Assembly (NCBI GenBank): GCA_001784585.1
Contig: MFRN01000003.1
Location: 1 to 36,062, forward strand
DNA: 36,062 nucleotides
Source: Candidatus Melainabacteria bacterium RIFCSPLOWO2_02_FULL_35_15
GTDB lineage: Bacteria; Cyanobacteriota; Vampirovibrionia; 2-02-FULL-35-15
Direction of reading: 5' to 3'
The notes under the pieces were generated by a model. It did not search any database and had not been told where the DNA came from. It saw nothing but the letters and a program-made list of their open reading frames with translations. The position numbers and the translations under genes were made by a program. This document shows positions 7,162-35,848 of the stretch, one piece after another. Each line of letters opens with the position of its first letter. Within the stretch, counting starts at the first letter, position 1.

Positions 7162-7365
7162 ATGTCAATAGATAAAGAATTAATAAATAAAGTAAAATCC
7201 TTATCACAAAATGAAAGGACAAAACTTGTAAAAATAATTATGGGATTTGAAATTCCACCAAAAGAAAAGCATAATTTAACAGAATTAGCCGGCTTAGGTA
7301 CTGAAATATGGAAAGATATTGATGCCCAAGAATACATCGCCAAGGAGAGAGAAGATTGGACATAA
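7162..7365 (+). CDS. VapB-type antitoxin (partner of PIN toxin)
   Basis: The 67-residue product is small and acidic at the C-terminus: a helical N-terminal part (SIDKELINKVKSLSQNERTK) followed by LTELAGLGTEIWKDIDAQEYIAKEREDW. The pattern L-x-GLG-x-EIW-x-x-IDAQEY is typical of antitoxins encoded next to PIN-domain toxins. An upstream in-frame ATG at 7111 would add 17 residues (MRIVYHNKKSFNG...) but overlaps the lpxA start; 7162 is preferred because it starts the conserved part. The stop overlaps the next gene by 10 bases. It would bind and neutralise the PIN toxin and probably repress the operon. Confidence 0.78.
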   Translation: MSIDKELINKVKSLSQNERTKLVKIIMGFEIPPKEKHNLTELAGLGTEIWKDIDAQEYIAKEREDWT

Positions 7366-7817
7366 ATAACCTCTTAGACAACTCTAGCAGAATCGCCCTT
7401 GATACATCAATCTTTATCTACTACATAGAAAAAAATAAAACCTACTTTGATTTATTAAAAACTATATTTGAGAGGTCACGGCAAAGTAATAGCTCACTTA
7501 AAATTATAACTTCTAATATTACTTTAATTGAGGTTTTAACAAAACCATTTTTTGAAAAGAGAGAAGATCTGGCAAATAAATACAAAGACATTTTACTAGC
7601 TTCAGAAGAAATTTCTATCTTAGAGCTGAATAATGATATTGCTGAATTAACTGCCAAATTAAAATCAAAATACTCTTTTTTAAAAACTCCCGATGCAATT
7701 CAAATTGCCACCTCAATTTATACTAATGCTGATCTGTTCTTAAGCAATGATAAAAAACTCCAAGGTATCAGTGAAATAAAAGTCGTTGTTTTAGATCAAT
7801 TACTTATAAATAAATGA
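7356..7817 (+). CDS. PIN-domain toxin, VapC-like ribonuclease
   Basis: The 153-residue PIN domain begins IALDTSIFIYYIE (first acidic residue D16), has IEVLTKPF with the conserved Glu in the middle, and ends with TPDAIQIATSI followed by ADLFLSNDKKL, supplying the remaining acidic metal ligands. VapC-type toxins cut tRNA or rRNA with Mg2+. The gene overlaps the antitoxin by 10 bases and the following gene by 4, so all three are translationally coupled. Confidence 0.88.
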   Translation: MDINNLLDNSSRIALDTSIFIYYIEKNKTYFDLLKTIFERSRQSNSSLKIITSNITLIEVLTKPFFEKREDLANKYKDILLASEEISILELNNDIAELTAKLKSKYSFLKTPDAIQIATSIYTNADLFLSNDKKLQGISEIKVVVLDQLLINK

Positions 7818-8266
7818 ACACATTAAAAGTAACTAAAATAGAATTTGAATCTTTAGACAAAGTATTGTCAGAATCCGTAGATAAGGAAATTCTTTTAAAT
7901 CTTGATCATTGCTTAAATCTTGTAAGAAAAAAAAGCCGTGCTTTAGCATCCAGTTTAAATAGATGTTTTAATAATGCCAGAAACAGTATGAGATATGTCC
8001 TGGTTTATAATCTTGGCAGGAAAGATTTTAAAAATAAAAAACATATAAAGGAAGAAGAACTACAAAAATATCTGAAAGATTATTTAAAAGATTACTTTGA
8101 AAAGAATGATTTTATACATTATAGAGAATTTGTAAGGCTTTTACGCGCATGCACTATAGATACCGGCAGTGAAGTCAGCTCCTCCATCAAAGAAATGTAT
8201 AACAACTTTTTTTCAGGTAAACGTTTGGTTAAATCTTACAAACTTGGGACTTTTGGCCTTTCTTAA
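7814..8266 (+). CDS. Unknown protein coupled to the VapBC pair
   Basis: The 150-residue product is basic and mostly helical (NSMRYVLVYNLGRKDFKNKK, then a run of charged helix with KDYLKDYFEKNDF). No catalytic motif or membrane segment is apparent and I do not recognise the family. Its ATG overlaps the toxin stop (ATGA) and a terminator lies 45 bases after its stop, so it belongs to the toxin-antitoxin transcript. VapBC modules normally have two genes; the third could modulate the toxin or be a passenger. Confidence 0.7.
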   Translation: MNTLKVTKIEFESLDKVLSESVDKEILLNLDHCLNLVRKKSRALASSLNRCFNNARNSMRYVLVYNLGRKDFKNKKHIKEEELQKYLKDYLKDYFEKNDFIHYREFVRLLRACTIDTGSEVSSSIKEMYNNFFSGKRLVKSYKLGTFGLS

Positions 8267-17592: not shown

Positions 17593-18264
17593 TTGAACAA
17601 AATCCCTATAATCTTCTCTGACTTTGACGGTACCATTACTGAACGTGATGTAATTTTAACCATAATGGAAAGATTTGCACCTCCGGAATGGGTTGAAATT
17701 AAAAATAAAATCTTATACGAGAGAACAATTACTTTAAAAGATGGTGTGGAAAAGCTTTTTAGCCTAATTGAAAGTAATAAAAAAAACAAAATCACTGATT
17801 TTATAAAAGAAAAGGTGAAACTTAGGGGAGGATTTGAAGATTTTCTAAGTTTTTGTGAAAAAGAAAAAATTGAATTTAATGTATTAAGCGGTGGACTGGA
17901 TTTTCACATTGAACCTGTTTTAGGAAAGTTTAGAAATAAATTAAAGATCTTCTGTAACAAAGCGAACTTTAATTCAAAAAATATAAAAATAAATTATGAG
18001 TATTTGCCTGAGGATTGTTCTTTATGCGGAGATTGCGGGTTCTGTAAAATAGAGGTTATTGAAAAATACCCAAAAGAAAAGTTTACAAGGATATTAATCG
18101 GTGACAGTCTGACAGATTTAGCTGCTTCAAAAATAGCAGATATGGTATTTGCAAGAGGAGATTTGATAAAATACTTGGAACAGGAAAAAATTTCTTATAT
18201 TCCGTTTCAAACTTTCTATGAGGTAAAAGGACAATTAGCACAAAAACTATCAATCAGGACTTAA
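17593..18264 (+). CDS. mtnX: HAD phosphatase MtnX (HK-MTPenyl-1-P phosphatase)
   Basis: Removes phosphate from the MtnW product. The 223-residue product has HAD motif I in FSDFDGTIT (D10, D12), the typical MtnX N-terminus ERDVILTIMERFAPPEW, motif II in VLSGGLDFHI, a cysteine-rich cap segment CSLCGDCGFCK and motif IV IGDSLTDLAASKIADMVFARG. The start codon is TTG, one base after the mtnW stop. The serine phosphatase SerB and ThrH families are excluded by the N-terminus and cap. The stop at 18262-18264 lies inside an open frame leading into mtnB. Confidence 0.9.
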   Translation: MNKIPIIFSDFDGTITERDVILTIMERFAPPEWVEIKNKILYERTITLKDGVEKLFSLIESNKKNKITDFIKEKVKLRGGFEDFLSFCEKEKIEFNVLSGGLDFHIEPVLGKFRNKLKIFCNKANFNSKNIKINYEYLPEDCSLCGDCGFCKIEVIEKYPKEKFTRILIGDSLTDLAASKIADMVFARGDLIKYLEQEKISYIPFQTFYEVKGQLAQKLSIRT

Positions 18265-18326
18265 AAATAGCTCAAGCAAAGAGTGAACTAATAAAAGTCA
18301 GTAAAAACTTTTACGATCGTGGCTGG

Positions 18327-18899
18327 ATGCTTGGGACATCAGGAAATCTTTCGGTTTTAATTTCTGAACGACGAGCGACAAGCGACGAGTTACTATTTCT
18401 AATTACAGCAAGCGGAAAAGATAAAGGTGAGCTTACAGAAGATGATTTTATTCTGGTTAATGAAAATGAAGAAAATGTAGAATGTAGAATGCAGAATGTA
18501 GAATTAAAGCCATCAGCTGAAACACTATTACACAGTACTATTTACAAACATACAAATGCAAAATCTGTTTTTCATGTGCATACTACAAACAGTACTCTTT
18601 TATCCATAAAGTTACAGGATAAAATTATTTTTTCAGATTTGGAAATGTTAAAAGGGTTAGGTTTTAAAACTCACGATGTAAAAGTAATTATTCCAATAAT
18701 TAAAAATTCTCAGGATATAAAATATTTAGCAGAAATTGTACCAGGCTATATTAATGAAGAAGTTCCGGGACTTCTTTTAAAAGGGCATGGAATCTATGCC
18801 TGGGGCACTTCGCCCAAAGAAGCTAAAAGACATTTAGAAATTTTTGAGTTTTTGTTTGAATATAGGATAAAAGAATTGAGCTTGACAAAGAGTTTATAA
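18327..18899 (+). CDS. mtnB: Methylthioribulose-1-phosphate dehydratase MtnB (start uncertain)
   Basis: A class II aldolase-fold dehydratase. Metal ligands are the pair in HVHTT and the His of LKGHGIYAWG; the catalytic Glu lies in KPSAETLLH. The ATG at 18327 truncates the domain: family members have about 20 residues before GTSGN, and the frame upstream continues with exactly such sequence (KSELIKVSKNFYDRGW). No ATG, GTG or TTG exists between 18222 and 18327, so translation may start at ATA 18267 or another rare codon, or by frameshift from mtnX. Two heptanucleotide arrays are inside the gene at loop positions. The 3' end is duplicated at 19482-19522. Confidence 0.85.
   Translation: MLGTSGNLSVLISERRATSDELLFLITASGKDKGELTEDDFILVNENEENVECRMQNVELKPSAETLLHSTIYKHTNAKSVFHVHTTNSTLLSIKLQDKIIFSDLEMLKGLGFKTHDVKVIIPIIKNSQDIKYLAEIVPGYINEEVPGLLLKGHGIYAWGTSPKEAKRHLEIFEFLFEYRIKELSLTKSL
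18369..18389. repeat. Heptanucleotide array in mtnB (3 x 7)
   Basis: Units CGACGAG, CGACAAG, CGACGAG. In frame it encodes part of SERRATSDE, about five residues longer than the corresponding loop in Bacillus MtnB. Confidence 0.65.
18474..18501. repeat. Heptanucleotide array in mtnB (4 x 7)
   Basis: Units AATGTAG, AATGTAG, AATGCAG, AATGTAG. It encodes NVECRMQNVE in the loop just before the conserved KPSAETLLH, without a frame change. Confidence 0.7.
18842..18882. repeat. Direct repeat DR1 (mtnB 3' end)
   Basis: 41 bp that recur at 19482-19522, exactly 640 bases on: 36 identical bases, one mismatch, 4 identical. It encodes the C-terminal FEFLFEYRIKELS of mtnB. Confidence 0.85.
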
Positions 18900-18909
18900 T
18901 TAATAATAA

Positions 18910-19140
18910 ATGGACAATAATCTAGACAATATACTTAACTCAATTAAACAACTCTCAACAGGAGATAAGCTAAGGATTTTATATTTTCTAAAGGAAGAAC
19001 AAAACAAAAAGCCAACACAAGAAGAGATTGTTTCCTTCTTTTCTGAAGAGACAAAAAAACTGGAGAATTGGAATCAAGAAGTTGATAAATTATTAGAAGA
19101 AACAGGAAAATTCTTTAGTGAGCTTAACAAGTCAATTTAA
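18910..19140 (+). CDS. Small helical protein in the mtnB-end cassette
   Basis: The 76-residue product is acidic and almost wholly helical. Its opening IKQLSTGDKLRILYFLKEEQ resembles small antitoxin-like or regulator proteins, but I cannot assign a family. It starts 10 bases after the mtnB stop and overlaps the following GTG-started gene by 23 bases. Both lie between the two direct repeats. Confidence 0.6.
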   Translation: MDNNLDNILNSIKQLSTGDKLRILYFLKEEQNKKPTQEEIVSFFSEETKKLENWNQEVDKLLEETGKFFSELNKSI

Positions 19141-19480
19141 GGAAAAGCTGAAGCTTTTAAAAAGTAAACTTGAGAAAGCAAGCAAAGCATATAAATATAC
19201 TGCTGAGCTAATAATTTCTGGGTTAAAAACAATTAGTTTGGAAGATCCTGTCAGAAATATTTTTGCAAAACATGAATTTATAAATCAGGAATCATTTGCA
19301 AAATTAAAGTTACTTATAAATGAACTAAATATATTTTATAAACACGAAGAAATAATTCTATACGACGATAAAAGAATACAAAAAGCTTTAGAAATATTAA
19401 ATGTTTTTGAAGATCAAATCAATGATATTCTCGCTACGTTACAAGCCAGGGCAATATTTCTAGAAAATCTTTTAAGATAA
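19118..19480 (+). CDS. Helical coiled-coil-like protein in the mtnB-end cassette
   Basis: The 120-residue product starts with GTG (19118) inside the preceding gene. The N-terminal part is a basic helix (FKEKLKLLKSKLEKASKAYK) and the rest is amphipathic helix (FAKLKLLINELNIFYKHEE, ALEILNVFEDQINDILATLQ). No catalytic motif or membrane segment. It ends 1 base before the second direct repeat, so the gene pair almost exactly fills the cassette. Function unknown; a two-gene toxin-antitoxin-like role is only speculation. Confidence 0.55.
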   Translation: MSLTSQFKEKLKLLKSKLEKASKAYKYTAELIISGLKTISLEDPVRNIFAKHEFINQESFAKLKLLINELNIFYKHEEIILYDDKRIQKALEILNVFEDQINDILATLQARAIFLENLLR

Positions 19481-19481
19481 G

Positions 19482-19522
19482 TTTTGAGTTTTTGTTTGAA
19501 TATAGGATAAAAGAATTAAGCT
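19482..19522. repeat. Direct repeat DR2 (second mtnB 3' end)
   Basis: Second copy of DR1. In frame it reads FEFLFEYRIKELSC and then a TAA at 19525-19527, which could be the original end of mtnB. It lies 6 bases from the end of the opposing arginase-family gene. Confidence 0.85.
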
Positions 19523-19532
19523 GTTAAAACAT

Positions 19533-20537
19533 TTACAAATCCCTGGCATGTATATTAATATTTCTTGTCATTCTGGATAAATTATTAAATAAATTACCAC
19601 CAAATGAAGTAGTTATCAGCTGAAGAGCCCAGTCTACTGTTTGTCCCCTTAAATCTCTACGTTCTAATTTTGGAGCTACTTCCATAACTTCAAAACCAGC
19701 TAATCTGCCAGCTAATCTTATTTTTTTATTTATTGCTCTGGCAACTACAAGGCCTTCTCTAAGATTTAACTGACTATCACCACTCGTACCAGTACCTGTA
19801 ACATTCATAGAATCTATATCCCACGCTATATAAACATACTTAACTCTTTTTAACAGATAATCTAATGCTTCATTGATAACTTTGTTTATACCTTTATCAT
19901 CAATATCAGACATTGAATACCATTTTGTTTTTGGATTTACAGCACTTTTTTCACCAATTGCAATCTGAACAAAATTTTCTTTTTTTATTTTAGGCAGATT
20001 TTTATTTTTCCCAATCATTAGTAATCTTTGAAAATCCGGATGCGGATCATAATGCTTATTTGCTATAGCTACTGAGACTGGCATACCATGAGCCCTTAAA
20101 GACGGGCTGTTTTTAGGTGAATGGGCATCAAAGTGTCTATCCAGCCAAAGAACGCCTATATTATTCAGGGCATCATGAGTTCCGCTTATCGTACCAATTG
20201 CAAGACTATGATCACCACCTATTGTCAGAGGAACTGAACCGTTTTTAATCTCATCTCTTACAGTCTCTGAAAGCCATTCATTTATTTTTATTACTGCATC
20301 AATATTTTTAATTCTGCTTTTTGCGTTTTCTGGTTTGTGGCTGGAGACATAATGCATTACATCTCTACCGGGTTTTATAATTTTTATATTGAAACCTAAT
20401 TCTTTTAAATCATCACTAAGCCCATTCGACATCAAAGCTTTAGGGCCATCTTTAGCAGCATCATTTGGTCCGCCGATGGAAAAAGGAGCAAGGATTATGG
20501 AGATATTGTTATTTGTCGTCATCTTTATTACTACCAT
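19533..20537 (-). CDS. Arginase/agmatinase-family ureohydrolase
   Basis: The 334-residue product has the family metal site: H110 in IGGDHS, then D133, H135 and D137 in WLDRHFDAH, and D240 and D242 in AWDIDSMNV; E286 is in the EVMEVAP block. Most relatives have Ala where this one has R134 (DAH is DRH here). The binuclear Mn2+ centre is therefore intact, but the substrate (arginine, agmatine, formiminoglutamate or another guanidino compound) cannot be told. Start could be 20537 or ATG 20522. It follows yqeG on the same strand after 25 bases, which contain a 14-bp palindrome. Confidence 0.85.
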   Translation of the reverse strand: MVVIKMTTNNNISIILAPFSIGGPNDAAKDGPKALMSNGLSDDLKELGFNIKIIKPGRDVMHYVSSHKPENAKSRIKNIDAVIKINEWLSETVRDEIKNGSVPLTIGGDHSLAIGTISGTHDALNNIGVLWLDRHFDAHSPKNSPSLRAHGMPVSVAIANKHYDPHPDFQRLLMIGKNKNLPKIKKENFVQIAIGEKSAVNPKTKWYSMSDIDDKGINKVINEALDYLLKRVKYVYIAWDIDSMNVTGTGTSGDSQLNLREGLVVARAINKKIRLAGRLAGFEVMEVAPKLERRDLRGQTVDWALQLITTSFGGNLFNNLSRMTRNINIHARDL

Positions 20538-35029: not shown

Positions 35030-35848
35030 CTATCTATCTATAAGTTTAACTGGCTCTGGAGCTGGAAGTGAGGGGTACTGTCCATATAGTTCTGAATATT
35101 GCTCTTGTAACTTATTCCTAATGCGATCACATGACAGTCTTGTTGAGAATTCAGTTGGTATGTTTAATGTTCGTTCCAACGACCTGCCTGCTTTTCCTAG
35201 TGAATATGCTGCAAAAGCATCTATTACCTTTCTAAAATCTTTTGGTGTAACTTGTCCTTTAGCATCTCTTTCTAGTTTTATGTTAGTTCTTTCTTCATAA
35301 AATTTAAGTGCTTCTGTTACATCAATCCTTCCATTTTTATCTTTATCAAACTTAGCAAATATCCTGGGAAGCGGAGTGTGGATAAACTCTTTGTTGTTCA
35401 TATAGTTATAAAGTTCTGCAGCAACATCCAGGCAAACCTCTTTTTCTTCAGAACTTGTATCCTTTGAATTACCAACTTTAATAAACCAATCACTAACTTT
35501 TAGTACTTTGTCTTTTGTTATTTTGTAGGGAAAATTATAGCCAATAGAAAGAATACAAGGACTATAGTGTGCTTTATCTGAATAAAATTCAAGTGCTTCT
35601 TCAGGGACATCTATTTTTCCATTTCCATTAAAATCATGAAGCTGAAATAATTTTGGTAATTTGCCTTTATAATCCCCGGATGCTGGAAAAGTGTAAAGTG
35701 TACTAGCCAGAAATGGTATATTATTAACTTCTTTTACTAATGCCGGTTCTGAAATTGTCTTGGCTCGATCTTGTTTTTGTTCATTTAATGTACATCCTAC
35801 TGGAAGTGTTACAGCTACAGCAGCAGCTAGTTTTAATATTGGATTCAT
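35030..35848 (-). CDS. EF-hand lipoprotein-like protein
   Basis: The 272-residue product begins with a signal stretch (LKLAAAVAVTLPVGC) whose Cys19 fits lipid modification. Two EF-hand loops are clear: DFNGNGKIDVPEE (about 74-86) and DKDKNGRIDVTE (about 169-180), each with Asp/Asn at positions 1, 3 and 5, Gly at 6 and Glu at 12, followed by similar helices (ALEFY, ALKFYEE). It is therefore probably a calcium-binding envelope protein made of two related modules. The Shine-Dalgarno AAGGAG lies about 10 bases before the ATG. Partner and role unknown. Confidence 0.82.
   Translation of the reverse strand: MNPILKLAAAVAVTLPVGCTLNEQKQDRAKTISEPALVKEVNNIPFLASTLYTFPASGDYKGKLPKLFQLHDFNGNGKIDVPEEALEFYSDKAHYSPCILSIGYNFPYKITKDKVLKVSDWFIKVGNSKDTSSEEKEVCLDVAAELYNYMNNKEFIHTPLPRIFAKFDKDKNGRIDVTEALKFYEERTNIKLERDAKGQVTPKDFRKVIDAFAAYSLGKAGRSLERTLNIPTEFSTRLSCDRIRNKLQEQYSELYGQYPSLPAPEPVKLIDR

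Follow-up and report, generated by a model that had tools for sequence, protein, structure and literature searches.

The window (the whole 36,062-nucleotide stretch that was analysed, positions 1 to 36,062 of contig MFRN01000003.1 of Candidatus Melainabacteria bacterium RIFCSPLOWO2_02_FULL_35_15, genome G000 below) carries the mtnB gene, two small genes which we call orf1 and orf2, and a convergent arginase-family gene; a short stretch from the 3' end of mtnB is present twice, once within mtnB itself (DR1) and once beyond orf2 (DR2; Table 1). The mtnB frame is open from 18258 and its start codon is uncertain, with the alignments of its relatives beginning at residue 1.

Table 1. Features at the mtnB locus, with positions given in the numbering of the window.
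Feature	Position	Strand	Description
mtnB	18258-18899	+	Class II aldolase family, methylthioribulose-1-phosphate dehydratase; Pfam Aldolase_II 5.6e-38
DR1, upstream copy	18839-18882 (41-bp core 18842-18882)	+	Inside mtnB 3' end
Present mtnB tail beyond DR1	18883-18899	+	LTKSL and stop
orf1	18910-19140	+	76 aa, helical, no recognised family; homologues confined to two further genera of the family
orf2	19118-19480	+	120 aa, no recognised family; predicted three-helix bundle, pLDDT 93.5
DR2, downstream copy of mtnB end	19479-19522 (41-bp core 19482-19522)	+	Core begins 1 nt past the orf2 stop
End of displaced mtnB tail	19523-19527	+	Remainder of Cys codon and stop
Arginase-family gene	19533-20537	-	Convergent neighbour; Pfam Arginase 1.3e-36

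A first-pass annotation of this DNA had described the two copies as lying exactly 640 bases apart and agreeing in a run of 36 bases, one mismatch and 4 more bases, and sequence comparison bore this out, with a start-to-start distance of 640 bp, 40/41 matching bases in the core in just that pattern, and 42/44 when the alignment is extended without gaps. The sole core mismatch (TTG/TTA) is synonymous, coding for Leu in both copies. In a self-comparison of the window this was by far the strongest direct repeat (E = 3.6e-13, the runner-up having E = 0.007), and no further copy turned up anywhere in the genome (1.94 Mb in 45 contigs). DR2 does provide the alternative mtnB end that had been proposed, coding for FEFLFEYRIKELSC followed by a stop at 19525-19527, while the present C-terminal end of the gene product reads FEFLFEYRIKELSLTKSL, its stop finishing at 18899. 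A plain tandem duplication of mtnB was ruled out, as the repeated part is just 41-44 bp, is no part of any larger mtnB duplication and encloses an insert with homologues elsewhere. The G+C content of the insert is 0.27, compared to 0.34 for the window. Elsewhere in the window, a 43-bp internal repeat was seen in an EF-hand-like lipoprotein gene (35030-35848), and no direct repeats flank the pair at 7356-8266, in which a PIN-domain toxin gene overlaps the gene of a 150-aa partner of no recognised family.

Between the repeats there is nothing but orf1 and orf2, as the first-pass annotation had stated, and no transposase, integrase or other recombinase gene was found there. The two genes overlap by 23 nt and, because this 23-nt overlap is conserved in homologous pairs from two further genera (three genera in all), both look to be real genes. 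Those homologues are confined to G006 and G009 and are distant (28-37% identity); a search for orf2 in 386 genomes of the phylum gave convincing matches only in these two and in G000, and viral contigs gave no match. Neither protein had an above-cut-off match in Pfam or to any toxin or antitoxin family, no restriction-modification domain was found in either, and profile comparison with the neighbouring antitoxin and HEPN proteins revealed no worthwhile similarity. The N-terminus of Orf1 weakly matched VapB15 (E 0.024) and the PADLOC model PDC-M52A (E 3e-4), and the predicted fold of Orf2 resembled generic three-helix bundles only, with no PDB fold match. A promoter and terminator scan gave no more hits than shuffled sequences did.

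In both G006 and G009 the orf1-orf2 homologues lie directly upstream of ubiA, in one operon with it, and no flanking repeats were detected at this slot. The same slot holds HicB-HicA in G000 (L174, contig C13) and a HEPN plus nucleotidyltransferase pair in G001, and no such pair in G003-G005; these differing contents suggest that the ubiA slot exchanges two-gene modules. It is chiefly for this reason that orf1-orf2 is suspected of belonging to the same class, and we tentatively regard it as a putative toxin-antitoxin pair, a guess from context to which we give somewhat less than even weight. At L174 a DUF2281-like gene and a shortened PIN gene stand downstream of ubiA, where relatives carry a reductase gene that is missing here.

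Across the family members which have the mtnB locus, gene order is kept: mtnW-mtnX-mtnB comes first, next a stretch that varies and usually holds mtnD, and after it the arginase-family gene, which is convergent, and a HAD gene (the locus ends at a contig edge in G010, and G004 has no mtnB match). Nowhere else among these members does orf1-orf2 lie behind mtnB. In G008 mtnB directly abuts the arginase-family gene and the ends of the two genes overlap, and so the site is empty there, which is the insert-free arrangement that the first-pass annotation had suggested looking for. Several of the relatives compared are metagenome-assembled genomes, and the sites lacking an insert were all seen in other species and genera rather than in strains of the same species. 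The mtnD gene, usual between mtnB and the arginase-family gene, is missing both in G008 and at 18899-20537 in the window.

The G009 locus carries a different insert at the same place: behind its mtnB come a nucleotidyltransferase and HEPN pair (MNT-HEPN) and a 103-aa gene, beyond which the mtnB end recurs as a 21/23 copy that still reads EYRVKELSLSAK before a stop. The end of mtnD is likewise duplicated beyond large inserted genes in G009 (63 bp at 94% identity) and in G006 (53 bp at 79%). We could rule out that mtnB is a general attachment site in all bacteria, as a genuine tail copy was present in only 1/80 mtnB loci (L072, the Melainabacterial G009). Other apparent copies were rejected: that at L073 is really an mtnD remnant, that at L107 merely a 15-bp match, and the apparent mtnB-end repeat of G006 is really the mtnD end. 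At L152 (G003) the methionine-salvage operon is split by tandem paralogous lipoprotein-like genes situated between mtnW, mtnX and mtnB.

Loci of nucleotidyltransferase (PF18765) and PIN (PF01850) genes in 11 genomes of the family were scanned for direct repeats bracketing the gene. Bracketing repeats were present at 17/57 toxin-type loci, corresponding to 14/53 independent sites, and at the threshold used the other 39/53 sites had none. Control sliding windows from the same family gave 8/212 unrelated positives (tandem paralogues and low complexity among them) and control single-gene loci 2/82, so that the toxin-type sites were enriched over both (Fisher P = 3e-6 and P = 4e-5 respectively), these P values being approximate because windows overlapped and loci were grouped manually into independent sites. 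The duplicated host ends include those of uvrA, pntB, tktC (the transketolase C-terminal subunit), a DNA methyltransferase gene and an MGMT-like gene, among others, the names uvrA, pntB and tktC having been read off the protein sequences and not taken from a family search. A tRNA gene is also among the hosts: in G003 (L207, contig C20, 939-1728) a nucleotidyltransferase and HEPN pair stands just behind tRNA-Glu; on the far side of the pair the tRNA 3' half recurs as a 31/33 copy, which is broken by a short insertion. The HEPN protein of this site is 59% identical to that of the G009 mtnB site. In several relatives there are no toxin modules at these places, tktC being followed directly by an acyl-CoA dehydrogenase gene and pntB standing near an exonuclease gene.

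The duplications were 23-69 bp long across sites, with one of 209 bp. In most cases the second repeat begins 0-25 nt from the last stop codon of the module, with overlap in two cases and with exceptions at about 60 and 106 nt and at the G009 mtnB site with its extra gene between, so that the inserted unit is trimmed almost to its coding sequence. Arrays with at least three repeat copies around successive modules occur at three sites (G000 contig C33, G008 C25 and G001 C6); that in the window's own genome (L266, L269) has two tandem PIN modules and three copies of the MGMT-like tail, and G003 C58 holds a further repeat-rich cluster. At one locus (L257) it is the 5' end of a gene that is duplicated, although this case is less certain as the upstream copy runs into a run of N. 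The modules inspected contain no recombinase gene, and tyrosine recombinases are absent from the window's contig, with four encoded on other contigs of the genome. The first-pass annotation had called the mtnB unit unusually small, which holds against integrase-borne elements and does not hold within this family, where other units are of about the same size.

Where the two copies of a host end could be compared in frame, the ratios of synonymous to non-synonymous codon differences were 1:0 for mtnB in G000, 2:0 for mtnB in G009, 3:0 for pntB and 8:1 for the methyltransferase gene, and they were near neutral for uvrA (2:3) and tktC (5:7). Judged from these codon changes, the mtnB, pntB and methyltransferase copies look like two once-functional tails, as though a version of the host end had arrived with the insert, while the uvrA and tktC copies would fit either homologous tails or the decay of a useless copy. 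Both pntB copies share an Ile that is absent from every other relative (it is specific to G008), suggesting that any donor was close. The copy data appear compatible both with duplication at insertion and with an incoming homologous end; as the divergence is mixed, one mechanism may not cover all sites.

Insertion with long target duplication has been proposed for restriction-modification systems (Nobusato et al. 2000, cited in PMC3874152, PMC1643837 and PMC3154945); in the passages of those papers that deal with it, it was inferred by comparing related genomes and no known mobile element was attached. On that description the likeness is in a self-contained addiction-type unit with a long, variable, direct target duplication and no mobile element, and the mtnB case has a 41-44 bp repeat, insert-free relatives (of other species and genera) and no transposase or integrase. 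The Melainabacterial units differ in being toxin-antitoxin-type pairs or pairs of unrecognised family instead of restriction-modification systems (it is only the mode of insertion that is compared), in having duplications of 23-69 bp (one of 209 bp) instead of some 100 bp in order of magnitude, and in usually involving the 3' end of a gene, which is restored. Integrative elements at the 3' ends of tRNA and protein genes share the gene-end repeat on both sides, the restored end and a tRNA gene among the targets, but the Melainabacterial units lack an integrase, are below 1 kb and have a separate repeat for each host gene. As with integron cassettes, the units are small, can stand in tandem and are often toxin-antitoxin pairs, but their repeats are derived from host gene ends and are not members of a conserved attC family, the unit contains no integron integrase and no attC-typical inverted repeat was found around the mtnB repeat. 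Two small overlapping genes, a patchy distribution and exchange at the same slots recall the type II toxin-antitoxin systems (MNT-HEPN, VapBC-type PIN, HicBA; Makarova et al. 2009, PMC2701414), but neither orf1 nor orf2 has an above-cut-off match to a toxin or antitoxin family. In a limited literature search no description of this pattern came up, either for toxin-antitoxin pairs or for Melainabacteria, and this counts as weak evidence that it is new. The mtnB case is best read as an insertion with duplication of the host gene end of the kind proposed for restriction-modification systems, here with small two-gene modules in Melainabacteria.

Several other explanations must be weighed against this. 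The draft assembly (45 contigs) might have joined two strains through the 36-bp exact repeat, whose length is near short k-mer sizes, but the contig needs both junctions, that between orf2 and DR2 lies outside any repeat common to other sequence, and comparable structures are present in genomes that were assembled independently, so we consider such an artefact highly improbable. The pair might instead have been relocated once from the ubiA operon to the end of mtnB by ordinary chromosomal rearrangement, the repeat being an incidental local duplication; orf1-orf2-ubiA does form one operon in two genera and G000 lacks the pair at ubiA, having HicBA there. The ubiA slot itself swaps modules (HicBA, HEPN-MNT or none), however, and flanking repeats are enriched at toxin-type pairs generally, making a single relocation rather unlikely, though, as no flanking repeats were detected at the ubiA pairs of G006 and G009, orf1-orf2 may perhaps be no more than a normal pair of genes with a single move in its past.

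Site-specific integration, in which a trans-acting tyrosine recombinase inserts small circles bearing an attachment site that matches a host gene end (as for a non-autonomous integrative element), would agree with gene 3' ends and a tRNA 3' end being classical attachment sites at which an element brings a replacement tail, with the four tyrosine recombinases of the genome and with arrays that look like repeated integration at one site. Against it, the repeat differs from one host gene to the next and inspection by eye shows no common core, a single gene can have repeats of different length and left boundary (41-44 bp at mtnB in G000, 23 bp in G009), the modules inspected have no recombinase and L257 duplicates a gene 5' end, and we judge it distinctly unlikely. 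In homology-facilitated illegitimate recombination, a linear donor would pair with the host gene on one side and form an illegitimate joint on the other within the recipient gene end, DR2 being the leftover recipient tail. This has more in its favour, as the copies often differ in the manner of two functional homologous tails (by synonymous or conservative changes), the tails after the repeat differ between copies, the boundaries vary and larger non-toxin genes show the same pattern, but it predicts varied trailing DNA where DR2 mostly lies 0-25 nt from the last stop, and the G008-specific Ile in both pntB copies speaks against a distant donor; on balance it is a possible account to which we give something under a one-in-three chance.

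What can be said most safely is that an insertion placed orf1-orf2 at the end of mtnB and duplicated this end, and that genes in the family have repeatedly been inserted in this manner. Insertion at the mtnB 3' end with the coding end restored, as the first-pass annotation had proposed, is well supported by the relatives that have no insert, by the limited extent of the duplication and by the recurrence of the architecture at other genes and at a tRNA gene. The further suggestion of a mobile two-gene cassette is only partly supported, since the repeat and the pair are found at a single site in this genome and the pairs in G006 and G009 sit in the ubiA operon with no flanking repeats detected. 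In the explanation that we prefer, the inserted unit would comprise a short leader, orf1 and orf2, terminating at the orf2 stop, and the event would leave the last ~41 bp of mtnB on both sides, so that mtnB keeps a working end. Toxin-antitoxin-type pairs and some larger genes would settle at gene ends in this way, duplicating 23-69 bp of the host end, and could build arrays. No dedicated recombinase would be involved; most likely, incoming DNA carrying a homologous gene end would recombine there, and the alternative route within the same proposal is the target duplication put forward for restriction-modification systems. A trans-acting integrase is possible and is disfavoured because there is no evident shared core and the boundaries vary.

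Taken as a whole, the insertion of a minimal two-gene unit with host-end duplication, as one case of a family-wide mode, seems to us probable, even with the repeat-free majority of toxin sites, the empty sites coming only from other species and genera, and the mixed divergence of the copies counting against it. A bolder proposal is that the family has a dedicated route, active to this day and based on a trans-acting recombinase or on a process coupled to transformation, which moves minimal two-gene addiction-type units as cassettes, with the host gene end serving as both recombination site and replacement end and with arrays built without any element-encoded recombinase; this we think unlikely.

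These findings bear on the open question of how toxin-antitoxin pairs move when carried by neither a transposon nor an integrase. Many repeat-flanked insertions are available in the family, at gene ends that have been identified and at a tRNA gene, and the divergence of their copies can be read; target duplication, homologous gene-end recombination and a trans-acting integrase can therefore be compared directly within it. By its context, the flanking gene-end repeat could also point to two-gene systems that are still unknown, such as orf1-orf2.
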